A stretch of 43,573 nucleotides of DNA from a virus. Positions 3,147-43,196 of the stretch are shown here, one piece after another (position 1 is the first letter of the stretch; every line of letters starts with the position of its first letter). The DNA is taken from the IMG/VR virus record IMGVR_UViG_3300027976_000073, positions 1 through 43,573 of that record; one strand, written 5' to 3'. A program made the position numbers and the translations under genes. The notes under the pieces were generated by a model, which saw nothing but the letters and a program-made list of their open reading frames with translations, did no database searches and was not told where the DNA came from.

Positions 3147-4856
3147 ATGAATTTAGAAGTGTTTAAAAATTCGGACCCATCTGGTAGGATGTCAAAAGAA
3201 TCTTTTGTGATTAAGAATTACAAAGAAGAGTATGATTATATAACTAATTATTGTGATAATAATAATATTCTTGGAATTCCTTTTAAAGAAAAGGTATATT
3301 TATCGGTTAATGAAGTTGATCATTACCCAGTGTGTAAAAACTTACATTGTGATAATATTGTTAATTTTAAAAACTCAACAATTGGATATTATGAATATTG
3401 TTCAAATAAATGTGTTTCTTCTGATCCAGATATTAAAAAAATAAAGGAGGAAAAATCATTAAAGAAATATGGAACAAAATCACCAGCACAGTCGGACCAA
3501 ATAAAAGAAAAAATAATTAAAACGAATCAGAAGAAATATGGTGGTAATTCACCTATGTCCAGTGTTGATGTGCAAAAAAAGTCTATAAACACTCTTATGT
3601 CTAACTATGGTGTTGATAATCCGAATAAATCCGAGGAATTATTAAAAAAGAGAATAGAATCATTTAAAAATAGCTCATATAAAGAATCCTTCCGGCGCAC
3701 AAGTCTAAAAAGATATGGTGTTGATCATCCATGGATGATCAAGGATATACACAAAAAAACAATAGATTTTTTTTATACGGATTATAAGAGAAGAATCGAG
3801 AGTAAGATAAGTTCAGATTTTATTTTCATTGACTTTAAAAGGGGAGTATCAACAAATTTGGAATTTCACTGCAATACTTGTGATTCAAATTTTGAAATAT
3901 TAACTTATCAGTTCTATGATAGAGTTAATAGAAATAATAGCATATGTACCAATTGTTTTCCTATTTCAGAAAATGCGTCAATATCACAGATTGAGATTTA
4001 TAACTTTATCGTATCGAATTATCATGGTGATGTTATACTTGATTGTAAAGGTATACTAAACCAATATGAAATAGATATATATTTACCCGAATTAAAAATA
4101 GGATTTGAATTCAATGGTGTTTGGTGGCATTCTGAAAAATTTAAAAGTAAAGACTACCATTTAAATAAATACCGTGTATCAGAAAATAATAATGTCACTT
4201 TAATTTCAATATGGGAGGATGAATGGAATATAAAAAGAGATATAGTTAAGTCTCTTATTTTAAATAAAATTGGGAAAACATCTAATAGAATATTTGCCAG
4301 GAAATGTGATATAAGAGAAGTTAGTTATAAAGAATCTAGGACATTTCTATATAACAATCACTTACAAGGAGATTGTAAATCTTCTATAAGGATTGGTATA
4401 TATAATAATGATGACATTGTTAGCCTTATGACATTTTCTAAATTAAGATTACCAATCAGTGGTAAAAATGGTAGGGACAATAAGGACATCTATGAGCTTA
4501 CTAGATTTTGTAGTATATTAGATACTGTTGTTGTCGGTGGGGCTTCCAAGGTAATGAGATATTTTCTGAAAAATTACCATCCAATTCGGATTGAGACATA
4601 TTCTGATAACTTTATATCAAGTGGTGATTTATATAATAAACTAGGGTTCAAATATTCACATACATCTAATCCAGGATACTGGTATGTAATAGATGGTATT
4701 AGAAGCCACAGATTTAATTGGAGAAAACAAAAATTAGTAAAACTTGGATATAATAAGAATAAGACAGAGGAGGAGATAATGTCAGAACTTGGTCGATATA
4801 GGGTATATAATGCTGGGAATAAAAAATGGATTTATAATATAGGGTTACCCATTTAG
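3147..4856 (+). CDS. Vsr-like homing endonuclease with KYG repeats and GNAT-like C-terminus (copy A)
   Basis: A 569-residue free-standing nuclease, probably a homing endonuclease. Order of parts: N-terminal zinc-type module with Cys pairs (CKNLHC near 63-68, CSNKC 85-89); three consecutive 23-residue KYG repeats starting at 107, 130 and 153 plus a fourth at 189; second Cys cluster (CNTC 242-245, CTNC 267-270); Vsr-like nuclease with E283, D310 in EIDIYLP, E321, H328 in WWHSE and D358 in IWEDEW; then a GNAT-like domain, about 385-510, with ELTRFC, GGASK and LYNKLGF. The nuclease layout fits the EDxHD group typified by I-Bth0305I, which shares the Vsr mismatch-endonuclease fold. It sits right after the sheath terminator and ends 6 bp from the truncated relative on the other strand. 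A TGATATATA box lies 20 nt or so before the ATG. Confidence 0.8.
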   Translation: MNLEVFKNSDPSGRMSKESFVIKNYKEEYDYITNYCDNNNILGIPFKEKVYLSVNEVDHYPVCKNLHCDNIVNFKNSTIGYYEYCSNKCVSSDPDIKKIKEEKSLKKYGTKSPAQSDQIKEKIIKTNQKKYGGNSPMSSVDVQKKSINTLMSNYGVDNPNKSEELLKKRIESFKNSSYKESFRRTSLKRYGVDHPWMIKDIHKKTIDFFYTDYKRRIESKISSDFIFIDFKRGVSTNLEFHCNTCDSNFEILTYQFYDRVNRNNSICTNCFPISENASISQIEIYNFIVSNYHGDVILDCKGILNQYEIDIYLPELKIGFEFNGVWWHSEKFKSKDYHLNKYRVSENNNVTLISIWEDEWNIKRDIVKSLILNKIGKTSNRIFARKCDIREVSYKESRTFLYNNHLQGDCKSSIRIGIYNNDDIVSLMTFSKLRLPISGKNGRDNKDIYELTRFCSILDTVVVGGASKVMRYFLKNYHPIRIETYSDNFISSGDLYNKLGFKYSHTSNPGYWYVIDGIRSHRFNWRKQKLVKLGYNKNKTEEEIMSELGRYRVYNAGNKKWIYNIGLPI

Positions 4857-8835: not shown

Positions 8836-10398
8836 ATGAAGACAGATCATATAGGTATTATTTTTTCTAAAAATCCCACTAGAAGTTCTAAGTGGTTCAT
8901 GGATAATTATGAGGATGAGTATATATGTGTTGATAGACATATATCTGATAATATCAGTTGGAGGGAAAAACTATACCTATATATTAGTAACACCTCTAAA
9001 CCAATATGTTATTGTGGTGGCCACGTCTCCTTTATATCTGCTAAATTAGGGTATCGAGAATATTGCTCAACCAAGTGCCAATCCAATTCAATTAAAACCA
9101 TAGAGAAAAGGAAAAAAACAAATTTAAAAAAATATGGACATGAATATGTATTGGAAAATAAAGACATCAAGGACAGTATATCAAAAACAATAAAGGATAA
9201 ATATGGTGTGGATAATATATCACAATCAAATGATATTAAATTAAAAAAGAAAAATACCACCCAAGAAAATTATGGGGTTGATTATAATTCACAACGACCC
9301 GTTATGAGAGATATTAATTCCAGGTCAATGACTATTCGCAATATTGAAACAAATACTGATAGACATATCAATTACTGGAAAAACAAACTATCTGAATATT
9401 CATTAGAATTTATAAATAAGGAAGTCGGATCTGTTTTAGAAATAAAATGTAGTGATTTTAATCACACATTTAAAATACATAAAACCATGTTCAATGATAG
9501 GGTTAAAAATAAAACTCCTATATGTACTGTGTGTTATCCTATAAATAATACTTGCTCACTGGGAGAGCTTGAACTATATAATTATATATCCAGTATTTAT
9601 CATGGTGAGATCATTCAATCATATAGGGATGGTTTGGAAATATATGTTTATTTACCGGATTTGAATATTGGATTTGAATATAACGGATTATATTGGCATT
9701 CAGAGGAATTTCGGGATAAGAGATATCATTTGGACAAGGTTAATTATTTTAAAGAAAGGGAAATACGTATTATCCACATCTGGGAAGATGATTGGAAATA
9801 CAATACTGATATAATCAGATCACAGGTAAGAAATTTACTGAATTTAACTGAAAAAAAGATATTTGCTCGTAAATGTGTTATCGAAGAGGTTAAGGATTCT
9901 AAAATATGTAGTGAATTTTTTAATGAGAACCATATACAAGGAAAGGTCAATTCATCTTTAAAGTTGGGACTTTTTTTTGACGGTGAGATGGTCGGACTCA
10001 TGACATTTGACCATTTTGAGGGTCGTGGAATATTATCAGGTGATGAATGGAATTTAAACAGATTTTGTACAAAAACAAACCATGTCGTGGTTGGTGGCGC
10101 ATCGAAATTAATAAATTATTTTATAAAGGTTTATAATCCTAATAGGATAATATCTTATGCTGATAAATCATGGAGTCTCGGTAAATTATATGAAAATCTT
10201 GGATTTAATAAATTATATGAAACCGATCCAGATTATAAATATGTGGTTGGTGACAAAAGGATACACAAATCAAATTTCAAAAAATCAAAATTTAAAAATG
10301 GCTTGAGTGAATCTGAGAATATGGGAGAATTTAGTAAAATATATGACTGTGGTAAGATAAAATATGAGTATATAATTTATGATCCAATGGGGTTTTAA
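8836..10398 (+). CDS. KYG-repeat nuclease family, copy D, with altered catalytic aspartate
   Basis: A 520-residue full-length family member. Type I zinc module (CYCGG near 58-62, CSTKC 77-81), three KYG repeats (about 99-165, the fewest of the full-length copies), second Cys cluster (CTVC 230-233), nuclease region about 243-322, GNAT-like domain about 345-470. The family motif E-I-D-I-Y-L-P reads E-I-Y-V-Y-L-P at 268-274: the metal-binding Asp is Tyr (codon TAT where others have GAT). E281, H288 in YWHSE and IWEDDW are kept. The C-terminal end is the IYDCGKIKYEY type, not the KKWVY type. The frame is otherwise intact, so the protein may still bind DNA but probably cuts poorly or not at all. 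Confidence 0.78.
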   Translation: MKTDHIGIIFSKNPTRSSKWFMDNYEDEYICVDRHISDNISWREKLYLYISNTSKPICYCGGHVSFISAKLGYREYCSTKCQSNSIKTIEKRKKTNLKKYGHEYVLENKDIKDSISKTIKDKYGVDNISQSNDIKLKKKNTTQENYGVDYNSQRPVMRDINSRSMTIRNIETNTDRHINYWKNKLSEYSLEFINKEVGSVLEIKCSDFNHTFKIHKTMFNDRVKNKTPICTVCYPINNTCSLGELELYNYISSIYHGEIIQSYRDGLEIYVYLPDLNIGFEYNGLYWHSEEFRDKRYHLDKVNYFKEREIRIIHIWEDDWKYNTDIIRSQVRNLLNLTEKKIFARKCVIEEVKDSKICSEFFNENHIQGKVNSSLKLGLFFDGEMVGLMTFDHFEGRGILSGDEWNLNRFCTKTNHVVVGGASKLINYFIKVYNPNRIISYADKSWSLGKLYENLGFNKLYETDPDYKYVVGDKRIHKSNFKKSKFKNGLSESENMGEFSKIYDCGKIKYEYIIYDPMGF

Positions 10399-25512: not shown

Positions 25513-27306
25513 ATGATAAAGGAAAAGTTTATTTTGTTAAAGGGACATCCTCGTAATAAAAAATATTACGAAAATCTTGGATATAATGTTATAATTGGGA
25601 GCACGTTTAGTGTTAATGTATTACACCTTAGTAAAGGATGTTCTACTAAGATCACATCAATATGTGATATATGTGGAAACGAATCGAATAATTGTTTTAA
25701 GGATTATTGGAATTATACAAATGGTGTCGTGGATAAATATTATTGCAATCTGTGTAATAAAGAAGTGGCTAAACAGACATGTATTGATAGGTACGGGGTT
25801 AACAATCCCATGAAGAGTGATAAAGTAAAGAAAAAATTAAAAAAATCTATATTAGATAAATACGGAGTCGATCATTATTCTAAAACCGATGAATATAAGA
25901 TAAAGTATAAAAAAACATGCATGGATAGGTATGGGAAAACCAATACATTTCAAGTTGATGAATTTAAGGAATCTTCCAAAAAAACAAATTTAAAGAATCT
26001 TGGGGTTGAATATCCAATGCAGTCTAAAGATGTTATTGGAAAATCACGAAAGACATTTTTTGAAAATTGGGGGAAAGATTGGTATTCCAAAACAAAGGAT
26101 TGGAAAAAAAGGTCCGAAGAAATATCTATGGAAAAATATGGAGTCAATCACTATTCTAAAACCGATGAGTATAAGCAACGGTGTATTAATACAAATGATA
26201 TCATATGGGGTGGTCATCCATCTAAAAATGAGTTTTTTAAAACTAGGTCAAAAATATCTAAGGAAAGAAAAACACATATTAAATATTCTGAATTGATTTC
26301 AGAGAAATATGATACAGTATCTTATCACAATGAGGAATTTAAGATATTACATATAGAATGTAATAAGGAATTTTCAATAAGTAAAGGGTTATTATCAGCA
26401 AGATATACTATGGGTAAGTGTATTTGTGTAGAATGTAATCCAGTTGGTGTTCAATATTCTTTTATAGAATCGGAAATATATAATTTCATTAAAGAGATGT
26501 GTATTAATTGTGAAAGGAATCGCAAAGACCTAATAAAGGGGGAAATAGATATATATTTACCAGATCACAATATTGGTATTGAGGTCAACGGTATATATTG
26601 GCATTCTGAGATATTCAAACCATCCAATTATCATTTAGATAAAACAATGCAATGTAAGAAATCGGGTATAGATCTTTTGCATATATGGGAGGATGATTGG
26701 CAACATAAGAGAGATATTGTCAAATCTATAATAAAAAACAGAATGGGTGTGGTTGATAAAAAGATAGGAGCTAGAAAATGTTCAATAGACATTGTTGGTG
26801 CTAAGGAATATAGACAATTTCTTGATGAGAACCATATACAGGGATTCTCCAGTTGTTCTATAGCTATTGGACTTTATTCATCAGGCACATTGGTTAGCTT
26901 AATGACATTTGGATGGAGAAGGACAAATAATAAAAAGGAATATGAACTGATAAGATTTTGCAATAAGAAACACCATTCTATTATGGGATCAGCATCTAAA
27001 TTATTTAATTTTTTTCTTAATAATCATTATGATGGGCAAAATATTACATCCTATGAGGATATCTCATTATTCAGTGGATCGTTATATAGTAGATTGGGAT
27101 TTGACGATATATCATTATCCGATCCAAATTATTTCTGGGTAGTTGATGGTGTGCGAAAGCATAGATATAACTTTTCTAAGAGAAAATTGGTGAATGATGG
27201 ATTTGATAAAAATATGACAGAGGTTGAGATAATGCATAGCCGTGGATATTATAGGATATATTCAAGTGGTCAGAAAAAATGGGTATATAGTATATCGATT
27301 TGTTGA
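25513..27306 (+). CDS. KYG-repeat Vsr-like nuclease with GNAT-like domain (copy E)
   Basis: A 597-residue full-length member. Type II N-terminal module (GHPRNKKYYENLGYNV, then CDICGN 51-56 and CNLC 78-81), seven 23-residue repeats (93-253), a second Cys cluster, nuclease region with EIDIYLP, IEVNG, YWHSE and LLHIWEDDW, and the GNAT-like domain (FLDENHIQG, LVSLMTF, YELIRFC, GSASKLFNFF, LYSRLGF). The C-terminal end is of the KKWVY type. All catalytic positions are intact. It lies between the late sigma gene and gmd, with its own start-proximal TATATA box. Confidence 0.8.
   Translation: MIKEKFILLKGHPRNKKYYENLGYNVIIGSTFSVNVLHLSKGCSTKITSICDICGNESNNCFKDYWNYTNGVVDKYYCNLCNKEVAKQTCIDRYGVNNPMKSDKVKKKLKKSILDKYGVDHYSKTDEYKIKYKKTCMDRYGKTNTFQVDEFKESSKKTNLKNLGVEYPMQSKDVIGKSRKTFFENWGKDWYSKTKDWKKRSEEISMEKYGVNHYSKTDEYKQRCINTNDIIWGGHPSKNEFFKTRSKISKERKTHIKYSELISEKYDTVSYHNEEFKILHIECNKEFSISKGLLSARYTMGKCICVECNPVGVQYSFIESEIYNFIKEMCINCERNRKDLIKGEIDIYLPDHNIGIEVNGIYWHSEIFKPSNYHLDKTMQCKKSGIDLLHIWEDDWQHKRDIVKSIIKNRMGVVDKKIGARKCSIDIVGAKEYRQFLDENHIQGFSSCSIAIGLYSSGTLVSLMTFGWRRTNNKKEYELIRFCNKKHHSIMGSASKLFNFFLNNHYDGQNITSYEDISLFSGSLYSRLGFDDISLSDPNYFWVVDGVRKHRYNFSKRKLVNDGFDKNMTEVEIMHSRGYYRIYSSGQKKWVYSISIC
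25789..26271 (+). repeat. seven 69-bp (23-codon) KYG repeats in copy E
   Basis: Units begin RYG, KYG, RYG, NLG, NWG, KYG and IWG at exact 23-residue spacing. Each has an aromatic-Gly start, a variable stretch of about six residues, S/T/Q-x-D/E, and a Lys-rich helix. DNA sequences have diverged, so the unit is conserved at protein level. Confidence 0.75.
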
Positions 27307-27366
27307 CTTTTATCTAAGACTAATTTTTTTAAATAAACTTTAATTATCCTGTTGTATAAAACTCTT

Positions 27367-28422
27367 ATGGGAAAAACGGCATTGATCACTGGAATAACTG
27401 GACAAGATGGGAAATATCTAGCAGAATTATTATTAGAGAAGGGGTATATTGTGCATGGTATTAAAAGAAGAAGTTCTTCATTTAATACCGATAGGATAGA
27501 TAATATTTTTGAAAAGACAAAGGATGATGGAACATTTCACCTTCACTATGGTGATATGACAGATTCTACAAACCTTATAAGTATTATACAAGAGGTTCAG
27601 CCGGATGAGATATACAACTTAGCCGCCCAGTCACATGTTAAGGTTTCATTTGAAACTCCTGAATACACAGCAAATGCTGATGCTATTGGCACATTAAGAA
27701 TATTGGAGGCTATTCGTATACTTAAATTAACAAAAAAGACAAAATTTTACCAAGCTTCAACATCTGAAATGTTTGGACTTGTGCAAGAGATTCCACAAAA
27801 CGAAAAAACCCCATTTTATCCAAGAAGTCCATACGGAGTTGCCAAACTATATTCACACTGGATAACTATTAATTACCGAGAGGCTTATGGTATATATGCT
27901 TGTTCGGGAATACTTTTCAACCACGAAAGTCCAGTAAGGGGTGAAACATTCGTTACTCGTAAGATAACAATGGCGGCATCACGTATTAAAGTTGGTCTTC
28001 AAGAGAAATTATATGTTGGGAATCTAGACGCTAAGAGAGATTGGGGACATGCTAAGGATTATGTCCGTGGAATGTGGCTTATGTTGCAACAAGATAAGCC
28101 AGATGATTTTGTTTTATCAACTGGTAAAATGGTATCTGTTAGAGAATTTATTGAGATGGTTTTTAAACAACTTGGTATAATTATATCTTGGGAGGGTAAT
28201 GGTCTTTTTGAGAGGGGTATTGATATTGATACCGGTGGTACATTAATAGAGGTAGATGAGGAATACTTTAGACCGACAGAGGTTGATCAATTATTAGGAG
28301 ATTCTACTAAAGCAAGAACTATTCTTGGATGGGAGCCAGAATATGACCTTGAATCATTATGTAAAGAAATGGTTGATGAGGATTATAATAGTGTTTTAAG
28401 AGAGTTAAAAATATTACAATAA
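27367..28422 (+). CDS. gmd: GDP-mannose 4,6-dehydratase
   Basis: A 351-residue short-chain dehydrogenase-type enzyme that turns GDP-D-mannose into GDP-4-keto-6-deoxy-D-mannose using bound [12 protein letters not shown] at 8-15 binds the nucleotide; STSE 131-134 and Y156-x-x-x-K160 (SPYGVAK) form the active site; [17 protein letters not shown] is the family's later signature. The start is ATG 27367; a TTG 15 nt upstream is also in frame but adds nothing to the fold. The stop overlaps the start of fcl by 1 nt (TAATG), so the two are translationally coupled and make consecutive enzymes of GDP-L-fucose synthesis. Confidence 0.92.
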
Positions 28423-29369
28423 TGGTTAGAATTAAACCTTATTCCAAGATATTGGTGTGTGGTGGTCGTGGTATGGTTGGATCTGCTATAATACGAGAAT
28501 TAGAATCTAAAGGATTCAATAATATAATATCACCCACAAGTTTTGATTTAGACCTAACTAATCAATCAAGGGTTGATGAATACTTCAAAGAATATAAACC
28601 TGTTTTTGTTTTCTTGGCGGCTGCTTATGTTGGTGGTATAAACTATAATAACACAAAGAAGGGTGATTTTATTTATAAAAATATAATGATTCAATCAAAT
28701 GTTATAAATGCTTCCTATAAAAACGGTGTTGAAAAACTACTTTTTCTAGGATCTTCTTGTATTTATCCGAAAATGTGTCCTCAGCCAATAAAAGAGGAAT
28801 ATATGATGACTGGTCCTCTTGAGGAAACTAATGATGCATACGCTTTGGCTAAATTATCCGGTATAAATATGTGTCAGTCATTTAACCAGCAATATGGTAC
28901 TAATTTTATATCTGTTATGCCAACAAATATATATGGTGTTGGTGATGATTATGATCTTGGATCATCACATGTTTTACCAGCTCTTATTCGTAAAATACAC
29001 CAGGCTAAAATGAATAATGATAAGAGTGTTGTTGTATGGGGATCTGGTAATCCTATGAGAGAATTTTTACTTGTTGATGATCTAGCTGAGGCTTGTATAC
29101 ACCTTTTTGAGAATTATGATGGTGATGGAATTGTGAATATTGGAACTGGCGAAGATCTATCAATAAGAGATCTTGTGTATCTAATACAGGATATCATTGG
29201 ATATAAATGTGATATAGAATTTGATAGTAGTAAGCCAGATGGAACACCTAGAAAGTTATTGGATGTTTCAAAGGTTCATAATTTGGGCTGGAAACATAAA
29301 ACTTCTTTGAGAAATGGTATAGAATCAGTATATAAAGATTTTTTAAGTAATGAAAGAGATATTAATTGA
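28422..29369 (+). CDS. fcl: GDP-L-fucose synthase (GDP-4-keto-6-deoxymannose epimerase/reductase)
   Basis: A 315-residue enzyme converting the gmd product into GDP-L-fucose. GGRGMVGS at 14-21 binds NADPH; SSCIYP at 111-116 and Y140-x-x-x-K144 (YALAK) are catalytic; [10 protein letters not shown] and the DLA-x-A motif are also present. Full length for the family. It would use host GDP-mannose. No glycosyltransferase gene lies in the window, so the acceptor (virion protein, DNA base or host glycan) is unknown. The last 20 nt overlap the next small gene. Confidence 0.9.
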
Positions 29370-32306: not shown

Positions 32307-33018
32307 CAAATGTAAATTCGGGAAAGAGTTGAATTTATTTAATAAGGATAAATCATCCAAGGATGGACATCGATCCAATTGTAAGGAATGTTCTAGGAAA
32401 TATCGGGAGGAAAATAAGGACAAACAGAAGGAATATAGGGATAGTAGAAAGGAAAAAAAGAGTCTGGAAGATAAATTATGGTATTCTAGTAACAAAGAGT
32501 TAAAGGGTATTCGCAATAAGGAATATTATAAAAAAAAATCTGATAATATCAAGAAAAGGTCCTCTGAATATTATTCTAATAATAGGGAATCTAAATTGGA
32601 ATATCAAAAAGAATATCAGAGGAATAATAAAGAAAAACGGAATATACAATTATTAGAGCGTAGTAAAAATGATCCATTATATAGATTACGTGTTAATATT
32701 AGAAATTTGATAAATAATTCATTCTATAATATCGGGTATCCAAAAAATGGTAGGACAGAAGAAATATTAGGATGCTCATTTGAGGAATTGAAAGATTATT
32801 TAGAATCAAAATTTGAACCATGGATGACATGGGAAAATAGAGGAATATATGATGGTGGTTTCAACTCTGGGTGGGATATAGATCATATTATACCGGTATC
32901 AAGTGCTGAATATATAGAAGATGTGGTAAAATTAAACCACTATAAAAATATACAACCACTCTGTAGTAAAATAAATAGAGATATAAAGAAAGATAACATG
33001 AACTATGGCGAGCTATAA
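32293..33018 (+). CDS. HNH homing endonuclease overlapping the start of the portal gene
   Basis: A 241-residue nuclease of the same plan as the one at 13287: N-terminal CSKC and CKEC zinc finger, a highly charged middle with EYYxxN and KEYQRNNKEKR units, then HNH with WDIDHIIPVSSA and NIQPLCSKINRDIKKDN. Its 3' end overlaps the portal start by 14 nt. The zinc finger plus YY-x-x-N middle is shared with 13287, but the HNH loops differ, so they are distant relatives and not recent copies. Confidence 0.78.
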   Translation: MKRCSKCKFGKELNLFNKDKSSKDGHRSNCKECSRKYREENKDKQKEYRDSRKEKKSLEDKLWYSSNKELKGIRNKEYYKKKSDNIKKRSSEYYSNNRESKLEYQKEYQRNNKEKRNIQLLERSKNDPLYRLRVNIRNLINNSFYNIGYPKNGRTEEILGCSFEELKDYLESKFEPWMTWENRGIYDGGFNSGWDIDHIIPVSSAEYIEDVVKLNHYKNIQPLCSKINRDIKKDNMNYGEL

Positions 33019-34711
33019 TCCAACGAATGAGGCAGGTGGGAATTTTCAAATGATGAATTCTGCTGTAGAGAATAAAGGACTTTTCAGCAGAATACTAAGA
33101 GACTTATCTTCATGGGGTATGAACTACGATGATATGGTGATGAGAAATCAGGTTGGTGTGGGTATGAACGAAGATCCGTTCTCACAACAAGGAAATTCGA
33201 TGTACGATTTTTTTTCGCAAAGGGCGGTAGCCTCCGTTTTATCCAGAAAATCTATTCCTTACCTAGATAGAAGCTATCCAGATAAACGAAGAATTTTGAG
33301 AGAATATTCTATTAAAGATGAGATTAGAGATTTTGTATCAACCGTTTGTGATGAGGCTATTGTTTATTCAGATTCCGACTTCTGTACACCAAGATCAATA
33401 GGAAGCGACTATACTCAGGACATTAAAGATAAATATTTGGAATATTTTGAGGTTATCTATAATAAGATGGGATTTTCTGACTCTATTACAGCTTGGAATA
33501 TGATGCGTGACTTCCTTATTGATGGGTATATAGCCATGGAGATTGTTTGGGATGATAAGAAAAAGAACATTATCTATTTCAATAGAATGTATCCTGAAAC
33601 ACTTGTTCCAGCATATGAGCCATCTATTGGGCATATTTGGATTCAGTATCCAGAAGATCCACAATTAAGAAGGATCTTACTTGACTCACAGATAACATTT
33701 ATATCATACTCAACACAGAACGATTATTCAGAAACATCTTATGTAGAGGGACTTATTAAGCCATATAACCAATTGAAAATTATTGAACAGACCAAGATTA
33801 TGTTCAACATTATAAATGCAACACTTTATCAGAAATTTGTCATCCCGACAAAAGGACTTGGTAGAGCAAGAGCTGAAGAACAGATTGGTCAACTAATACA
33901 GGATTATTCAGAGGAAGTAGAATGGGATGATTCACTTGGAACACTAAAAATAAATGGGGCAAAACATTTACCATATAATAAGCAGTTCTGGTTCCCAGAG
34001 GGTGATGCTGGACAGCCTACTATGGAAATTGTATCACCAGAAGGTCATGACCTTAATGAGGATTCAATGCTTAGATGGTTTTTCAATATTTTAAAGAGAG
34101 CTACTAAGATTCCGATGCAGAGATTTCAGGATGATTCTGGTGGTGGTAGTGTATTCTCAGATGCTTCTGAAATAACAAGAGATGAGGCTAAGTTTGGAAA
34201 TTTTATACAAAGATTACGAGCTGTGTTTAAAGAGATAATAGTAAAGCCATTAAAATTACAAATACTTGTGGAATTCCCGGAGCTGAAAGAGGATGAAAGA
34301 TTCCTTAATCAGGTAGATATTGACTTCTTATCCAATCAATTATTTGAGGAGTGGAAGAAATTGGGTAACCTATCTAAGAAGGCGGAGATAATGCAATCAC
34401 TTCAGGCTATACAAGATGGTGATAAGCCATATTTCCACATAGAGTACCTAGTTGATAGAATTCTTAAATTGTCACCAGCTGAGAAGGAAGAGAATAAAAG
34501 GTATTGGGTTAAAGATGCTAATAAAGGTGGTGAAGGTGAAGGAGGTGAGGGAGACCTTGGTGGCGGAGGTGACTTCGGTGGTGACTTCGGTGGAGATGAT
34601 GGCGGAGGTGATGACTTCGGTGGTGGTGATACTGGTGTATCTGGTGGAGATGATGCTGGTGGAGATGATGCTGGTGGAGATGATGCTGGTGGTGCAGAAT
34701 TTGAATTTTAG
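33005..34711 (+). CDS. 20: portal vertex protein (T4 gp20-like) with Gly/Asp tail
   Basis: A 568-residue protein (T4 gp20: 524) forming the dodecameric DNA gate of the head. Signature stretches: EIRDFVSTVCDEAIVY near 105-120, MRDFLIDGYIAMEIVWDD, LNEDSMLRWFFNILKRATKIPMQRF and ITRDEAKFGNFIQRLRAVFKE. The last 60 residues are almost only Gly, Asp and Glu and include three perfect GGDDA repeats, a disordered acidic tail. The first codons overlap the HNH gene; there is no ribosome site, so translation may rely on coupling to it. Confidence 0.88.
   Translation: MASYNPTNEAGGNFQMMNSAVENKGLFSRILRDLSSWGMNYDDMVMRNQVGVGMNEDPFSQQGNSMYDFFSQRAVASVLSRKSIPYLDRSYPDKRRILREYSIKDEIRDFVSTVCDEAIVYSDSDFCTPRSIGSDYTQDIKDKYLEYFEVIYNKMGFSDSITAWNMMRDFLIDGYIAMEIVWDDKKKNIIYFNRMYPETLVPAYEPSIGHIWIQYPEDPQLRRILLDSQITFISYSTQNDYSETSYVEGLIKPYNQLKIIEQTKIMFNIINATLYQKFVIPTKGLGRARAEEQIGQLIQDYSEEVEWDDSLGTLKINGAKHLPYNKQFWFPEGDAGQPTMEIVSPEGHDLNEDSMLRWFFNILKRATKIPMQRFQDDSGGGSVFSDASEITRDEAKFGNFIQRLRAVFKEIIVKPLKLQILVEFPELKEDERFLNQVDIDFLSNQLFEEWKKLGNLSKKAEIMQSLQAIQDGDKPYFHIEYLVDRILKLSPAEKEENKRYWVKDANKGGEGEGGEGDLGGGGDFGGDFGGDDGGGDDFGGGDTGVSGGDDAGGDDAGGDDAGGAEFEF
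34643..34687 (+). repeat. three perfect 15-bp tandem repeats in the portal tail
   Basis: GGTGGAGATGATGCT occurs three times without change and encodes GGDDA each time. Identity at DNA level implies recent expansion or slippage. Confidence 0.85.
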
Positions 34712-35396: not shown

Positions 35397-37103
35397 TTAT
35401 GAGACATATCTAAATTTTATTTTACCAGAATCATATATTCTTAGAATATTTTTAGTGTCTTTGTTACGAAAATTAAATTTATGCTCTCTTATTCCTAATA
35501 CTATATAATGGTAGTCAGGTTTTATATTATATTCCTTCTTGAATCCAATCTTTTTATATAAATCACCATTGCTATAGGAATTATCCGAAAACGTTACAAT
35601 ATTGTTAGAATAATTGTTTATAAAATATTTTAGCAATTTGCTGGCTCCTCCAACAATACTAGTGTTCAATATGCTGCAATATCTATTAAGATCATACATA
35701 TCCTTGTTCTTTTTGAAACACATTATACTAACAAGTTTTTTATTATAATATAATCCTATTTTAACGGTAGATCCAACCCATCCTTGTATGTGGTTATTAT
35801 TTAGAAATTTCTTAATAACATAATTGTCTGTTATTTCCTTTATATCGCATTTACGAGCATATATCTTATTAGAGGCATTACCGATCTTGTTTAATATCAT
35901 TGATTTTAATATAGTGTTCTTGTATATCCAATCATCTTCCCATATATGTATTAATTGTATGTTATTGTTTAAGCAAATATCTGTCTTGTCTTTGTGATAA
36001 TTGCGTCCTTTATATAATTCACTATGCCAATAAACGCCATTGAGCTCAAATGCTATATTATCTTCTGGCAGGTATACATCCATTTCCTTTCCACCAATCC
36101 TATGATTAGTTAGCATTTCTTTGTTATAATTCTCGCTTATGAAATTTTGTAACAATACCTCTAATCCAGATTGATGTTTATCAATTTCATTACAAATAGT
36201 GCATATGCATGTATTTGTTTCTCTTCTTTTATAGAATAGCGAGTAGCTTATTCCAAATTCCTTTTGACAATAATCACATTGTATTCTGAACATCCTATTG
36301 GTAGAGTCTATTCTAATAATATTTTCACCACCATTTAGTATTTTCTCGTGTAGTGTTTTTAGTACTGATTTTTTTATTTTATTCTTAATATTTTCATTTT
36401 TTGATGGATTATCCTCTCCGTATCTTTCAATATTGGTTTCCTTGATTTTATCCCTTATTTCAATAGACTTTAGTAGATTATCAACGCCATATTTCTTAAT
36501 ATTATTTGTTATCATTCTTTTTTGAAATGATTCATCAAGGAAAATATATTTTGATCCTGTATTTTCTAAGCATGTTTTCATTTTTTTGATTTTAACACTG
36601 TCCAATTTTGAGATATTTGACACGCCGTATCTGTTTATGTTTGTTTGAATCTGTTTTTCTAGTATTTCTTTATTTTGTAGATGGTGTTCTGATCCATATC
36701 TCTCCATATTTCTCATTTTTATAAACTTTTGTATTTCGGTAGATTGTGAGATATATTCAACACCATATTTCTCCATATTTGTTTTCTTAGACTTATTCTT
36801 TATGGTGTCTAATTGGAATACATTTTCAACCCCATACCTTTCCATATTGTTCTTTTTTAGATTACATCTCCTGCAGGTGTATTCGCTGTTGATGTGTCCA
36901 TATGATGCATAGTTCTTATGTGATATTTCCTTCCCGATTCCACATGAATCACATTCAACAATTATTTTGGCATTACTATTCTTTGTAAGATTATTTACTG
37001 ATACCTGTATCTCCTCACCACATTTTATATCTGGATATGTTTTGTGGTAGTGACTGAAATTGGATGATCCTATCCTAACTGTTACACTTTTACTTATTAT
37101 CAT
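35397..37103 (-). CDS. KYG-repeat Vsr-like nuclease with GNAT-like domain (copy G)
   Basis: A 568-residue full-length member. Type II N-terminal module (CDSCG 51-55, CRRC 77-80), seven 23-residue repeats (89-249), second Cys cluster (CDYC, CTIC), nuclease with EMDVYLP, FELNG, YWHSE and LIHIWEDDW, GNAT-like domain (NNHIQG, LVSIMCF, YDLNRYC, GGASKLLKYF, LYKKIGF). The C-terminal end is the IYDSGKIKF type, as in copy D. Catalytic positions are intact. It is placed between portal and protease, facing against them, and is bracketed by an 18-bp perfect direct repeat. Confidence 0.8.
   Translation of the reverse strand: MIISKSVTVRIGSSNFSHYHKTYPDIKCGEEIQVSVNNLTKNSNAKIIVECDSCGIGKEISHKNYASYGHINSEYTCRRCNLKKNNMERYGVENVFQLDTIKNKSKKTNMEKYGVEYISQSTEIQKFIKMRNMERYGSEHHLQNKEILEKQIQTNINRYGVSNISKLDSVKIKKMKTCLENTGSKYIFLDESFQKRMITNNIKKYGVDNLLKSIEIRDKIKETNIERYGEDNPSKNENIKNKIKKSVLKTLHEKILNGGENIIRIDSTNRMFRIQCDYCQKEFGISYSLFYKRRETNTCICTICNEIDKHQSGLEVLLQNFISENYNKEMLTNHRIGGKEMDVYLPEDNIAFELNGVYWHSELYKGRNYHKDKTDICLNNNIQLIHIWEDDWIYKNTILKSMILNKIGNASNKIYARKCDIKEITDNYVIKKFLNNNHIQGWVGSTVKIGLYYNKKLVSIMCFKKNKDMYDLNRYCSILNTSIVGGASKLLKYFINNYSNNIVTFSDNSYSNGDLYKKIGFKKEYNIKPDYHYIVLGIREHKFNFRNKDTKNILRIYDSGKIKFRYVS
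36357..36839 (-). repeat. seven 23-codon KYG repeats in copy G
   Basis: Units start RYG, KYG, RYG, RYG, NTG, KYG and RYG at 23-residue spacing (residues 89-249). The fifth unit is degenerate (NTGSKYIFLDES). Confidence 0.75.
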
Positions 37104-37221: not shown

Positions 37222-39369
37222 ATGAAGTCAGTACTTATAGTTGAAAATTCAAACAAATCCCTGTCGGTTAATGAATCAAAATCAAAGGATAAATACCTAT
37301 TAGGTGGAACCTTTACAGAGTTTGGTGTTAAGAACAGAAATGACAGGGTTTATACCGCAGCTAAGTTTTTACCATGTTTAGAAGAACTAAACAGTAGAAT
37401 TACTGATCTGGGTGTAGTTTACGGAGAGTTTGATCACCCTGATGTGTTCGACACCTCTTTGTCCAGATCATCACACATCATCAAATCAGCTTCTTATGTT
37501 AAAGAAGGTAATAGAGTTGATGGTGAAATTAGCTTGCTAAGTACTTATTGGGGAAAAGAAGCTAAGGCACTTGTTAATGACGGGTGTCCAATATTTGTTT
37601 CGTCAAGAGCAGCCGGAGTTACGGAGAGTGATGGAACGGTTTCACTTAAGAAATTATTTACATATGATATAGTTGCAGACCCTGGGTTTTCATCAGCCAG
37701 GATGAGCGTTAAATCAATAAACGAATCACTAGGCTACCAGCCTGATTCTAACTTTAGAATATATGAAATGACTGATGAATCAAAAATAAACGAACTATTC
37801 AATATGAACGCAAAAGACTTTGTAACAAAAACACAGTTGACTGATTATTCTAACTATTTGGTGAATGAATTAGCAACAACTAAGAGAGAGGTTAAAAACG
37901 CTGTGACTAAAGGTCATTTAGCTCCTAAAAAAATGGAACAACTTCTAGAGTATTATGAGGAATTGAACCAAACAAACGCTAAGATGGAAAAATATCTTAA
38001 CTATTTGGCTGAGAAAATTCAAGTTGTTGTATCAGAGAACAAATCTCTTAAAGAAACAACATCTAGATTGATCAAGCATAATGATTATCTAGCTGAGAAC
38101 ATTGAGAAGAGTGTTAATTACTCTGAGTATTTGGCTGAAAATCTTGACAAGAACATTTCTTACGGAGAATACCTTGCTGAGAACTTGGATAAGAACATTT
38201 CTTACGCTGAGTACCTAGCAGAAAACTTAGATAAGAACATTTCTTACGCTGAGTACCTAGCAGAAAACTTAGATAAGAACATTTCTTACTCAGAATACAT
38301 TGCAGAAAGTCTTGACAAGAACATTTCTTACTCAGAATACCTTGCAGAAAACCTAGATAAGAACATTTCTTACGCTGAGTATCTAGCTGAGCACTTAGAT
38401 AATTCAATTGCTTACTCAGAATATCTTTCTGAGCATGTTGAGGGGAATATCGCTTATTCAGAATACATAGCTGAGAATCTTGATGATAACATCGCTTATT
38501 CTGAATATCTAGCAGAAAATCTTGACAAATCAGTTTCTTATCAGTCACTTATTACTGAAAAGTTAAACGGTGCTAGACTAAACGAGAATAGAAAAGCATT
38601 TAGACTTCCTACTGTTGAAGAAGCAGGATTTGAAGTTATCAAAGAAGATTTTTATGATGAGGAATTTGGTGATGAAGGTGAGAACCCAACACTAGACGAA
38701 ATGCCAATGGGCCGTTACCGAGGTGACTTTGAAAATGAAAAATGCTGCCTAGAGTGTGTTTTTGACCCATGTGAATGTCCAACACTTGAAAATAATGACT
38801 ATAACGATGAAGAAGATTCATCAGAAGAAATAGATGGAGACTCTGATACAGAGTTGTCAGCATCTATTGATAAACTAATTGAGGAAGCTAAAAAACGAAA
38901 AGCATCCGAAACATCCGACCTACACTTTTTGAGGTTCTTAAACAAAACTCAGGTTGACAGTTACTACACCCTTACAAATGAGGAACAAGAAACTGTTAAG
39001 CTTTACATAAACGAAAAAGGCTCATTCTTTACAACGAAAGACGTATTGAGTTTAATCTCTGAGGCATTGGCAAGTAAGAATGAAACGTTAGAGGAAAAGG
39101 TAATCAGATTAATGCCAGAAAATACAAAGGCTATCTGGAACCAAATGAACGAGAGTTCAAGAAAATCTGTCCTATCACAGGCTAGATTATATCCTGAAGA
39201 AATTTTGAGAACCGAAGAACAGGTTGATCACTTCTGGATGACTAGAAATCTCAAGAAAAATGAATCAGTTACTAAGAAATTAGTTTCCCACGATGCTCTT
39301 ATCCAAGAGGATAAATTATCTGAAACGGATTACAGCGCAATAATGGAAAGATTCGGAAAATTAAGCTAA
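37222..39369 (+). CDS. 21/22: prohead protease fused to scaffold (T4 gp21 + gp22-like)
   Basis: 715 residues from the ATG at 37222 (an ATG 51 nt upstream is in frame, but MKSVLIVEN fits a real start). Residues 20-160 are the serine protease: H72 in GEFDHPD, Ser in FVSSRAAG (about 127-128) and DIVADPGF. T4 gp21 cuts after I/L-x-E. Such sites occur at VNE18, at INE168 where protease joins scaffold, and in the scaffold repeats. Residues 200-300 are helical, 299-438 hold ten 14-residue repeats, then come an acidic stretch with CCLECVFDPCECP and a helical end. In T4, protease and scaffold are separate genes. Directly upstream of the capsid gene, as in T4. Confidence 0.8.
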   Translation: MKSVLIVENSNKSLSVNESKSKDKYLLGGTFTEFGVKNRNDRVYTAAKFLPCLEELNSRITDLGVVYGEFDHPDVFDTSLSRSSHIIKSASYVKEGNRVDGEISLLSTYWGKEAKALVNDGCPIFVSSRAAGVTESDGTVSLKKLFTYDIVADPGFSSARMSVKSINESLGYQPDSNFRIYEMTDESKINELFNMNAKDFVTKTQLTDYSNYLVNELATTKREVKNAVTKGHLAPKKMEQLLEYYEELNQTNAKMEKYLNYLAEKIQVVVSENKSLKETTSRLIKHNDYLAENIEKSVNYSEYLAENLDKNISYGEYLAENLDKNISYAEYLAENLDKNISYAEYLAENLDKNISYSEYIAESLDKNISYSEYLAENLDKNISYAEYLAEHLDNSIAYSEYLSEHVEGNIAYSEYIAENLDDNIAYSEYLAENLDKSVSYQSLITEKLNGARLNENRKAFRLPTVEEAGFEVIKEDFYDEEFGDEGENPTLDEMPMGRYRGDFENEKCCLECVFDPCECPTLENNDYNDEEDSSEEIDGDSDTELSASIDKLIEEAKKRKASETSDLHFLRFLNKTQVDSYYTLTNEEQETVKLYINEKGSFFTTKDVLSLISEALASKNETLEEKVIRLMPENTKAIWNQMNESSRKSVLSQARLYPEEILRTEEQVDHFWMTRNLKKNESVTKKLVSHDALIQEDKLSETDYSAIMERFGKLS
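38116..38535 (+). repeat. ten 42-bp tandem repeats in the scaffold, each with a protease site
   Basis: Ten units of 14 residues with consensus SYSEYLAENLDKNI. Two neighbouring units are identical at DNA level over most of their length. L/I-A/S-E occurs in every unit. Partial units lie on each side (NDYLAENIEKSV before, SYQSLITEKLNGA after). Confidence 0.9.
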
Positions 39370-39407: not shown

Positions 39408-41201
39408 ATGTCACACATTAGAATAGACAAACAAAAAGCCGTTAAGAAATGGTCACCAGTATTGGAGAACATGGGCGTTGTTGGTGATCGTATTGAATGG
39501 ATGTCAGAATACGCTGAACTTCACTCAATTAACGAGAACGCTTACGCAAACGCAACTACTGCGGGTATGGGTGGATTTGTTTCAGCTCAACCAGGTACTC
39601 TTCCAGGACTTCTTGGTGGTGGTGCAGGATTTGGGTCACAAGCCGGAATCGATCGTAACATCGGATCAGGAGATTTAGGACAGAACCTACTTCCAGTAGC
39701 AATGAAAATCGCAGCTCAGACAATTGGTCTTGACCTTGTCGCTGTAAAACCAACACCAGGTCCAAAAATCGATTTACTTTATATTGATTTTCAATATGAT
39801 GATCTTTCAGACGTTGGTGGAATGTCACGACCACAAGTATTTAAATTATCTGCAGTTGGCGACACAGGTAGTATGTTACTTGTAAAAGCCGCTATTAACG
39901 CAGCTCTTGTGTCGGCACCAGGTATTACACAAACACAAGGTGGATTAGAAGGTGGTAGATTATTCGTAAAAAACTCACATCTTGTATCGAGCACTATTAC
40001 ACCAACAGTTCCAACACAGTTGGACATAGACCCGGCTGGGGTAGTCACCGGTCTACAAGGAGCCTTAGAATTTCTTGGATACTCTCGTATCGATGGTTTC
40101 CCAATGTTCAGAGCTTGGAGACAAGCTAACTCAACACCAGGTGGATCACAAGCCGGTACTGGTACTTATGCATACCAGTTCGATCAAACGCAGAATACAT
40201 TTACTAGCGCTGCTTCAATGACATCACAACTTCTTTGGATAGGTGGTGCAACTGCTGGAACTGTTGATACATATACATCAGAAGTTACAATTGAATTAAT
40301 TTCAGCTCTAGAAGATCAACTTCCAGGGTTCTCAGCTAACTGGACATCAAACCTTAGTTCAGGAGATTACCCGATGAATCGTCAGAAAGATGAGGACACT
40401 TATTCAAGTGTTATCGGACCTAAAGTATCTACTAAATCAGTTGCTGTTGGTACTATTGAAGTATCTACTTCATTAAGAAGAACAGAAATTGAAGATATCA
40501 AGGCTAACACAGGAATGGATATCGTTCAAAAGATGGAATCAATCCTTGTTAATGAATTGTCTCAGACAATCTCTAAGCAAATTGTTCAAAGAATATTTGC
40601 TCTTGGTCAAGCTAACAGAGCTACATCACCTGTACAAGCAGGATTGGGTGTTACTTCTGTTGTTGCGACTGCTTCAAGTATTTTTGACCTTGACACTGCT
40701 TACGTAACTCGTAATGGTGGTATCGGTGGAGAAACAACACATGCTGTTCAAAGAAAACTTATCACTAAGTTGGCACATGCGTCTAACTACATCGCAACAG
40801 AAGGTAGAGTTGGCCCAGCACAGTTTGCTGTAACTAACGGAGGACTTGCTGCATCTCTTATGGACATCGCAGGTTACACTGTTAATCCAGTTAAATCTAA
40901 ATTGAACGGACAAGGTCAATTGTACCCTGTTGGTCAAATTGGAGATATCCAGATTTATGTTGACCCGTACATGAGATACAATGACAACAGAATCGTTATT
41001 GGAAGAAAGAATAACCCAGACCAACCAGGTTTGATTTTTGTACCATATCTTATGGCACAGTCAATCTCTGTGATCTCTGAAGCAACTTTCGCTCCAAGAA
41101 TGTTACTAAGAAGTCGTTACGCGCTCGCTGACGTTGGGTTCTTCCCAGAGAAGCAGTATATGACGATTGTTGTTAATGACGCAGCTCAATTCTTGAACTA
41201 A
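39408..41201 (+). CDS. 23: major capsid protein (T4 gp23-like)
   Basis: A 597-residue protein (T4 gp23: 521). The opening AVKKWSPVLENMG and RIEWMSEYAELHSINENAY are typical of gp23 precursors; T4 gp23 loses its first 65 residues by gp21 cleavage, and here the matching cut would follow INE at residue 43. The central MSR/R-P-Q-x-F and TGLQGALE parts and the end LMAQSISVISEATFAPRMLLRSRYALADVGFFPEKQYM match the HK97-fold gp23 group. The leader is strongly A-rich with AGGAG 30 nt before the ATG, too far for a ribosome site. A strong terminator follows. The DNA has a more even codon use (more C-ending codons) than the nuclease genes. Confidence 0.9.
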   Translation: MSHIRIDKQKAVKKWSPVLENMGVVGDRIEWMSEYAELHSINENAYANATTAGMGGFVSAQPGTLPGLLGGGAGFGSQAGIDRNIGSGDLGQNLLPVAMKIAAQTIGLDLVAVKPTPGPKIDLLYIDFQYDDLSDVGGMSRPQVFKLSAVGDTGSMLLVKAAINAALVSAPGITQTQGGLEGGRLFVKNSHLVSSTITPTVPTQLDIDPAGVVTGLQGALEFLGYSRIDGFPMFRAWRQANSTPGGSQAGTGTYAYQFDQTQNTFTSAASMTSQLLWIGGATAGTVDTYTSEVTIELISALEDQLPGFSANWTSNLSSGDYPMNRQKDEDTYSSVIGPKVSTKSVAVGTIEVSTSLRRTEIEDIKANTGMDIVQKMESILVNELSQTISKQIVQRIFALGQANRATSPVQAGLGVTSVVATASSIFDLDTAYVTRNGGIGGETTHAVQRKLITKLAHASNYIATEGRVGPAQFAVTNGGLAASLMDIAGYTVNPVKSKLNGQGQLYPVGQIGDIQIYVDPYMRYNDNRIVIGRKNNPDQPGLIFVPYLMAQSISVISEATFAPRMLLRSRYALADVGFFPEKQYMTIVVNDAAQFLN

Positions 41202-41288: not shown

Positions 41289-43196
41289 ATGTATAATATT
41301 AAAATAATCAATGATATAACAAATGATATCCCTGCTAGGATGAGGGAGTCCTATTTTAGAAATAACTATCCTGATGTTCACCAGAAAATAATTGATTATA
41401 CATCTGATATAGATATTAAGTTCGTACAGAGAATCTGGCATTGGGTGAATTTATATCCGAATTATAATCTTTGTAAATGTGGTAAAAAAACCACCTTTAA
41501 TAGAAATTGGAAAGATGGGTATAGGTTATCATGTTCTCCTAAATGTGCTCAGTCATGTGAGTCTACTAAAAGTAAGAGAAGAAATACAAATATTGAAAAA
41601 TGGGGAGTTGATAATATTTCAAAGTCGGATATAATAAAGAATAGAGCATCTTCTACTAACCTGGAGAGATATGGTCATACGTCTAGCTTTCAAAATGAAA
41701 CCGTTCGTAAAAAATGGTCAGATAGTATAAAGGATAAGTACGGTGAAGATCATTATTTTAAGACGGATGACTTTAAAACAAAGTCGGCAAAGACTATGAA
41801 TAATAAGTACGGGGTCGATCATTATGTACAATCGGATGATTACATAGAAAAGACTATTAATACCAATAATGAGAAATATGGGGAAGATTGGTACACACGT
41901 ACGGATGACTATTTAGTAAAATCAAAGAAGACTAGTAATGAGAAATATGGTGAAGACCATTACTCTATGACAGATGAATACAAGATTCGTGTAAACGAGT
42001 CTAATCTTTTAAAATATAAGGAAAAATGGTACTACCAGTCGGATGATTTTAAAAAGAAGTCATCCGAGTCAATAATGTTTAAATATGGAGTGGATCACTA
42101 TACAAAATCAGAAGAATATAAGAATTATATTGATAGTGATGAATATAAAAGTCTCAGGATGTTAAAAAGAGTTTCCTTTTATGAGGAAAGGGGATTTAAA
42201 TTTATATCTGGTAAGAAGCTAGGAAATGCTAGATTATATAGTGATCTATGTGGTCATGAATTTGACATACACCCAACAACCTTGCAACGGAGATCAATAT
42301 GTGGTGTTATTATATGTACTTCTTGTAACCCTGTTGACACTAAACAGTCAGGACAAGAGTTAAATATAATGAATTGGTTAGTGGAAATTGGATCCGATTT
42401 CAAATCCAAGGATAGAGATTCAATTAGCCCTTATGAATTGGATTTTTTAATAGGTAATACTGCTTTGGAATATAACGGTCTGTATTGGCACAGTGAGATG
42501 TATAAAGAAAGAACATATCACCTTGATAAAACAACAAAGTGTGTTAATAGTGGTATTGACCTTATACACATATGGGAAGATGATTGGTTATATAAACAAG
42601 ATATAATTAAATCAGTGATACTATCACGTATTGGAAAGATAGATAAACTTATATATGCTAGAAAATGCGCAATAAAAGAGGTTACTGATACATCTGTGAT
42701 AAGGGAATTCTTGGATAGAAACCATATACAGGGATATACATCATATAAAACATGTATTGGATTGTATTATAACGATCTATTAGTTTCATGTATGTTATTC
42801 CATAGTACAAGGGGTCGTGTTGAACTAGTTAGGTTCGTAAATATTTTAAATACATCTGTTATTGGGTCAGCTTCTAGACTGTTTAAATACTATACAACCA
42901 ATTATACTTGTTCGGAAATTACATCATTTGCTGACAGATCAATGTTTAGTGGTGATATTTATAAGAAACTTGGATTTAAATTTATACATAGAACACCTCC
43001 TAATTATTGGTGGGTTATTGATGGTATCAGGAAACATAGATTCAACTATAATAAGAAAAAACTGATAAAGGATGGATTTGATCCTAATAAAAGTGAAAGT
43101 GAGATAATGTGTGACCGGGGATATTATAAAATATATGGTTGTGGTCAGGATAAATGGGTTTGGAAAAGAACAAGTTTGTATAAAAGTGAGTTTTGA
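41289..43196 (+). CDS. KYG-repeat Vsr-like nuclease with GNAT-like domain (copy H, longest)
   Basis: 635 residues. Type I module (CKCG 62-65, CSPKC 82-86), eight 23-residue repeats from residue 104 to about 287, second Cys cluster (CTSC), nuclease with YELDFLIG (this copy lacks the YLP of the others but keeps the Asp), LEYNG, YWHSE and LIHIWEDDW, GNAT-like domain (FLDRNHIQG, LVSCMLF, VELVRFV, GSASRLFKYY, IYKKLGF) and a KWVW end. Found between the capsid terminator and the next structural gene. TATATATATTATA lies about 20 nt before the ATG. Confidence 0.8.
   Translation: MYNIKIINDITNDIPARMRESYFRNNYPDVHQKIIDYTSDIDIKFVQRIWHWVNLYPNYNLCKCGKKTTFNRNWKDGYRLSCSPKCAQSCESTKSKRRNTNIEKWGVDNISKSDIIKNRASSTNLERYGHTSSFQNETVRKKWSDSIKDKYGEDHYFKTDDFKTKSAKTMNNKYGVDHYVQSDDYIEKTINTNNEKYGEDWYTRTDDYLVKSKKTSNEKYGEDHYSMTDEYKIRVNESNLLKYKEKWYYQSDDFKKKSSESIMFKYGVDHYTKSEEYKNYIDSDEYKSLRMLKRVSFYEERGFKFISGKKLGNARLYSDLCGHEFDIHPTTLQRRSICGVIICTSCNPVDTKQSGQELNIMNWLVEIGSDFKSKDRDSISPYELDFLIGNTALEYNGLYWHSEMYKERTYHLDKTTKCVNSGIDLIHIWEDDWLYKQDIIKSVILSRIGKIDKLIYARKCAIKEVTDTSVIREFLDRNHIQGYTSYKTCIGLYYNDLLVSCMLFHSTRGRVELVRFVNILNTSVIGSASRLFKYYTTNYTCSEITSFADRSMFSGDIYKKLGFKFIHRTPPNYWWVIDGIRKHRFNYNKKKLIKDGFDPNKSESEIMCDRGYYKIYGCGQDKWVWKRTSLYKSEF
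41598..42149 (+). repeat. eight 23-codon KYG repeats in copy H
   Basis: Units start KWG, RYG, KYG, KYG, KYG, KYG, KYK and KYG at 23-residue spacing. Neighbouring units 3-6 are the most alike (KYGEDHY/KYGVDHY, TDDY/SDDY), consistent with more recent duplication inside the array. Confidence 0.8.

Follow-up and report, generated by a model that had tools for sequence, protein, structure and literature searches.

A single open reading frame in the 43,573-nucleotide stretch of viral DNA analyzed here (the window, a fragment held in IMG/VR as IMGVR_UViG_3300027976_000073) appears to combine in one polypeptide the roles that phage T4 divides between its prohead protease, gp21, and its scaffold, gp22. 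We consider it probable, on sequence comparisons, that this one chain replaces both proteins, assembles the prohead core, frees its own protease, and then cuts itself into peptides of about 14 residues. The component ideas are already known: self-releasing fusions of protease and scaffold occur in herpesvirus UL26 and in phage P2 gpO, and T4 provides the example of a scaffold cut at multiple sites. What is probably new, as far as open-licence papers show, is their combination, in which a protease is joined to a presumed scaffold with a likely cut site every 14 residues or so. A single-chain core with regular sites would also offer a simple in vitro system for studying assembly, release, and dismantling with one protein and the capsid protein. 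It bears on how the largest phages construct and clear their very large heads, where even the scaffold core of T4 still awaits a resolved structure (PMC9958956).

The reading frame, at 37222-39369 on the plus strand (as are its parts and the portal and MCP genes described below), encodes 715 amino acids. The start at 37222 was chosen over an extension of the frame up to 37171 because homologues share its methionine and an N terminus of the form MK(P/S)VLI(V/I)E, read as MKSVLIVE in the window, while the longer frame is unconserved. A gp20-like portal gene lies upstream at 33005-34711 (Pfam Portal_T4, 9.7e-58), separated from the fusion by two opposite-strand reading frames, one of them with a DUF7487 match. 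Directly downstream, at 39408-41201, is the gene for a gp23-like major capsid protein (MCP), the presumed substrate (Pfam Gp23, 5.9e-26), an arrangement that follows the gp22 family, whose genes lie upstream of gp23. No separate gp22-like gene was found between portal and MCP in the window. As the T4 gene order in the same stretch is 67, 68, 21, 22, 23, the fusion occupies the place of T4 genes 21 and 22. Promoter and terminator scans gave results at chance level.

The N-terminal part of the protein (residues 9-168, 37246-37725) is a gp21-like serine protease domain, matched by phrog_207, “head maturation protease,” at 2.7e-27. An AlphaFold2 model built from 32 relatives, of modest confidence (mean pLDDT 60), finds T4 gp21 (5jbl) as its top Foldseek match in the PDB (E 2e-6, with a target-normalized TM-score of 0.67), and a sequence profile comparison with 5jbl gives an E value of 0.0025. 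Residues H72, S127/S128, and D149/D153 are invariant across 32 sequences, the catalytic triad being assigned from the motif and not from the structure. Ahead of the domain, the putative propeptide MKSVLIVE (37222-37245) ends at a candidate activation site, IVE8/N9, of which L5 and E8 are invariant in the 32 relatives. The N terminus of T4 gp21, MNEPQLLIE/T, is comparable, and loss of these nine residues has been proposed as the trigger of its activation (PMC9958956). At the other end of the domain is the junction with the scaffold half, where a candidate release site, INE168/S169 (37717-37728), retains N167 and E168 without exception in 32 relatives at identities as low as 33%, with I, L, or V at P3 and S, A, C, and others at P1'. 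Homologue N termini and domain searches thus agree with the reading frame, start, and domains of the original prediction, and its proposals of a gp21-like protease joined to a presumed scaffold, with INE-S at the boundary, are borne out by the profile match, the fold match, the presence of both parts on one chain, and the conservation of the site.

The scaffold half begins with a helical segment (37726-38073; modelled helices 187-193, 203-229, and 235-270) and continues into an array of eleven 14-residue units (38077-38538, residues 286-439) with the consensus Y-S-E-Y-(I/L)-A-E/N-L-D-K-N-I-x, the slash marking the candidate cut. In the AlphaFold2 model, residues 277-448 form one continuous 172-residue helix (pLDDT about 70), which at 1.5 Å per residue would be about 25-26 nm long. 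A further candidate site, LNE455/N, follows the array at 38578-38589; E455 is almost invariant, and near relatives read L/V/I-N/F-E. An acidic, variable linker (residues 457-540, 38590-38841; 35% D/E, pLDDT about 30) is presumably disordered, and the protein ends in a helical domain (residues 541-715, 38842-39366) recognized from family conservation, modelled helices, and W...(L/M)NE/S...FW.TR motifs, a short similar stretch of which is also present in phage PTm5. A search for gp22 homology in the scaffold half gave neither a Pfam nor a PHROG match (T4_CASP, phrog_237), and hhalign assigned a probability of 0.5% against six gp22 proteins; we therefore infer scaffold function from gene position, helix, and sites. 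Matches of Pfam families within the array (LTI65 repeat, FERM, and others) were discounted as apparent chance matches to low complexity.

The form (L/I)(A/S)E is present in all 11 units, so that the earlier expectation of a motif in every repeat stands, with the count raised from ten. The accompanying description of the units as near-identical in DNA was overstated. Tandem Repeats Finder reports a period of 42 bp at which about 77-82% of positions match, units 4 and 5 are the only DNA-identical pair in the window, and mean identity of units within a genome is 0.70-0.76 across the family. Concerted evolution of the units was considered and set aside, since codon identity is 0.62-0.65 between units of one genome versus 0.54-0.64 between orthologous units of different genomes, which indicates that homogenization is weak at most.

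The course of events that these features suggest would most likely be the maturation of T4 performed by one chain, by analogy with the degradation of gp22 to peptides by gp21 (PMC9026906, PMC9958956). The scaffold half, a helical rod of about 25 nm made mostly of the eleven 14-mers together with the acidic linker and C-terminal domain, would help to form the prohead core. After assembly, the N-terminal protease would be activated at IVE8/N, release itself at INE168/S, and clip the capsid propeptide at INE44/N. The scaffold would then be cut at many (I/L/V)xE/(N/S/H) sites, of which every 14-mer supplies one, reducing the core to peptides of about 14 residues, such as NLDKNISYAEYLAE (1643 Da), and these small products would exit through the shell ahead of DNA packaging. 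Activation, cleavage, the order of events, and the fate of the peptides are all inferred here, and the single-chain model has the advantage of predicting exact virion peptides.

One complication is stoichiometry. T4 employs about 55-100 copies of gp21 with about 580 of gp22 (PMC9958956, PMC5694885), and a 1:1 fusion would supply far more protease than this. It is thus possible, if on balance doubtful, that the fusion is a minor form that delivers the protease, with the bulk of the scaffold made separately, either by internal initiation near Met195 or by an unrecognized gp22 gene elsewhere. Met195 (37804-37806), in frame at the start of the scaffold, occurs in each of 62 near relatives, with a counterpart in a clade of 33-36% identity (L097-L117), and herpesvirus UL26.5 is a comparable shorter gene in frame with a longer one (PMC4498786). 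Against such a separate supply, no Shine-Dalgarno sequence was seen at Met195, although its absence may not matter in the predicted Bacteroidetes hosts, and the interval between portal and MCP holds no gp22-like gene of its own. Moreover, a separate supply would be compatible with the single-chain explanation, altering the stoichiometry alone. Translation from Met195 could yield the scaffold on its own, a possibility that is offered as a lead.

The motifs of the array could be cut sites or by-products of a helical repeat. T4 gp21 cleaves after L/I-x-E (PMC9026906). Among near relatives, 628 of 629 units have the P1 glutamate, with I, L, and V at P3 in proportions of 0.45, 0.45, and 0.10 and N, H, or S at P1' (H in 23%). 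Tyr4 and Ala6 are just as invariant and Glu3 nearly so, and the constancy of the P1 glutamate alone therefore cannot tell cutting from structure. It is conceivable, though we think it unlikely, that the 14-mers are kept solely as a coiled-coil rod, that LAE is incidental to the helical repeat, and that the array, once the protease is released at the junction, exits intact or trimmed by a few terminal cuts. The single continuous helix of the model, the shared invariance of Tyr4 and Ala6, and a near-fixed, ruler-like number of units all fit such a rod. More diverged sequences argue otherwise. In the arrays of the 33-36% identity clade, the P1 glutamate (Glu7) is held at 0.74 versus 0.37 for Glu3, and P2 is nearly free; glutamates in motifs are conserved at 0.63 versus 0.25 for those outside motifs (p 0.003), and outside the array the corresponding values are 0.32 and 0.11 (p 0.01), both p values being optimistic because the seven distant rows are mutually related. 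Glu7 is also kept in units 8-10, where N, G, or D stands in place of Lys11, the residue that could pair with it at i+4.

Enrichment tests extend this argument against a purely structural rod to non-repetitive scaffolds. When I/L was counted at every distance from glutamate, the P3 spacing was enriched 1.8-3.5-fold in 14 of 14 scaffold sets, some of them overlapping, which comprise fused and separate scaffolds and include T4 gp22 and the window scaffold minus its array; the same measure in seven control proteins gave 0.4-1.5, with none enriched. In shuffles that keep composition, (I/L)xE occurs 12 times in the array versus 4.7 expected, and the remaining scaffold is also above expectation. Shuffles that preserve the hydrophobic pattern give 28 versus 14 for the scaffold and 16 versus 8.6 with the array excluded (p 0.005), and in these shuffle tests no excess was found in the MCP, portal, or other control proteins of the phage. 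The P3-P1 spacing is in addition a sequence test that may help to spot scaffolds among unannotated phage proteins. The motif form also recurs at the places expected, IVE8/N, INE168/S, LNE455/N, and, in the MCP, INE44/N. MCPs of relatives have MNE/N, IHE/N, LYE/N, or LNE/S as the counterpart of INE44/N45, the candidate propeptide site. In a MAFFT alignment of MCP N termini, INE44 was out of register with LTE65, where T4 gp23 is cleaved, and the site is proposed from its motif and its conservation in the family.

Taken together, the comparative tests favor genuine cut sites in the array, and the earlier statement that the repeats bear the protease motif holds, the motif being apparently under selection as judged from enrichment and from retention of glutamate at 33-36% identity. 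Some observations nevertheless count against the proposal. A stable coiled coil, as the modelled helix could be, would resist proteolysis; V at P3 in a tenth of the units and H at P1' in 23% contrast with the L/I-x-E of T4; and no sequence similarity of the scaffold to T4 gp22 was found. A 462-kb phage has the P1 glutamate in 6 of 11 units and has dropped it in the other 5, a loss that suits the rod and indicates that some relatives can do without a complete ladder.

The number of units is held near-constant even though units can be lost. Among 59 distinct arrays (four more could not be parsed), 51 have 11 units, five have 12, and three have 10; arrays of the 33-36% identity clade have drifted, with 8-11. 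We tentatively suggest that the array could be a self-erasing ruler, in which a rod whose length is fixed at 11 units, or in rare cases 10 or 12, sets a dimension of the core and, with one cut site per four-turn helical unit of 14 residues, is then reduced by the attached protease to uniform peptides. The original prediction had instead proposed that the number can vary and might tune core size; that a hypervariable tandem array sets core and capsid size in this way is very improbable, for although 10-, 11-, and 12-unit arrays exist and locus L084 is one unit short of its close relative L051, most arrays have exactly 11, units (above all 8-11) retain their positional identity, and unit number shows no trend with genome size in complete genomes (11 units at 462 kb, 11 at 634 kb, 10 at 636 kb, 11 at 642 kb, and 12 at 735 kb).

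The fusion is carried by some of the largest phages described. Searches with tblastn matched LR745206 (about 634-635 kb), LR756504 (636 kb), LR756502 (642 kb), and LR756501/3 (735 kb). By their sizes these correspond to the four largest phages with complete genomes reported in 2020, which belong to the Mahaphage clade and have predicted Bacteroidetes hosts (PMC7162821). More distant matches were found in LR756500 (462 kb) and Lak phages, and the gene is also present in dozens of genome fragments and in at least 287 coding stretches of IMG/VR. Fusions exist already among annotated phages, in Tenacibaculum phage PTm5 (564 residues) and Chryseobacterium phage MA9V-1 (1347 residues), while protease and scaffold are separate in RaK2, 121Q, Deifobo, P-TIM40, PC5, and T4. 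In a tree of 17 proteases, in which the branches leading to PTm5, MA9V-1, T4, and PC5 are long, a branch with support of 100/98 divides fused from separate forms. Fusion is a trait of a clade, which the window family shares with Lak and with the annotated Tenacibaculum and Chryseobacterium phages. Searching viral_contigs for PTm5 relatives yielded a single locus, 100% identical.

Among known systems, T4 shares with the window protein the protease fold, the gene position, the L/I-x-E motif, and a site-rich scaffold that is destroyed in maturation, but gp21 and gp22 are two proteins, gp22 is without a repeat, and homology between the scaffolds is undetectable. The PTm5 protein (BBI90999, “prohead core scaffolding protein and protease”) is likewise a phrog_207 fusion between portal and MCP with a site-rich scaffold; it comes, however, from a 226-kb phage, and the 14-mer is absent, replaced by its own array of period 16/32 with the motif within units. 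MA9V-1 ORF151 (WIC41415) is also a phrog_207 fusion and has 24 xNE sites, but these are not periodic. We read the scaffolds of PTm5, MA9V-1, and the window family as site-rich forms that evolved repeatedly. Herpesvirus UL26 has the same order of N-terminal protease and C-terminal scaffold and cleaves itself for release (PMC4498786), as is predicted for the window protein; it differs in having at least two sites and no ladder, and in that a scaffold product of an overlapping gene has been shown there, whereas here such a product may exist. In P2, gpO carries an N-terminal protease and a C-terminal scaffold domain on one chain and cuts both itself and the MCP (PMC7552001), but its scaffold domain is short, at about 90 residues, and PMC7552001 describes no repeat array.

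Several additional features accompany these genes. MA9V-1 ORF151 (L095, 3896-7939) contains an inserted DUF5856 domain at residues 465-576 (PHROG 858, “starvation-inducible transcriptional regulator”), with the xNE motifs located elsewhere in the protein; the insert may be internal cargo released through self-cleavage. In the window, the portal ends in a Gly/Asp-rich GGDDA tail coded by a 15-bp tandem repeat at 34564-34692. Long look-alike reading frames are scattered among the structural genes (3147-4856, 8836-10398, 25513-27306, 35397-37103, and 41289-43196); the two that were scanned have Pfam DUF7487 matches, and together they resemble free-standing mobile endonucleases of one family. Finally, two adjacent putative nucleotide-sugar genes amid the head and tail genes, at 27352-28422 and 28422-29369, resemble in sequence those for a GDP-mannose dehydratase and a GDP-fucose synthase.
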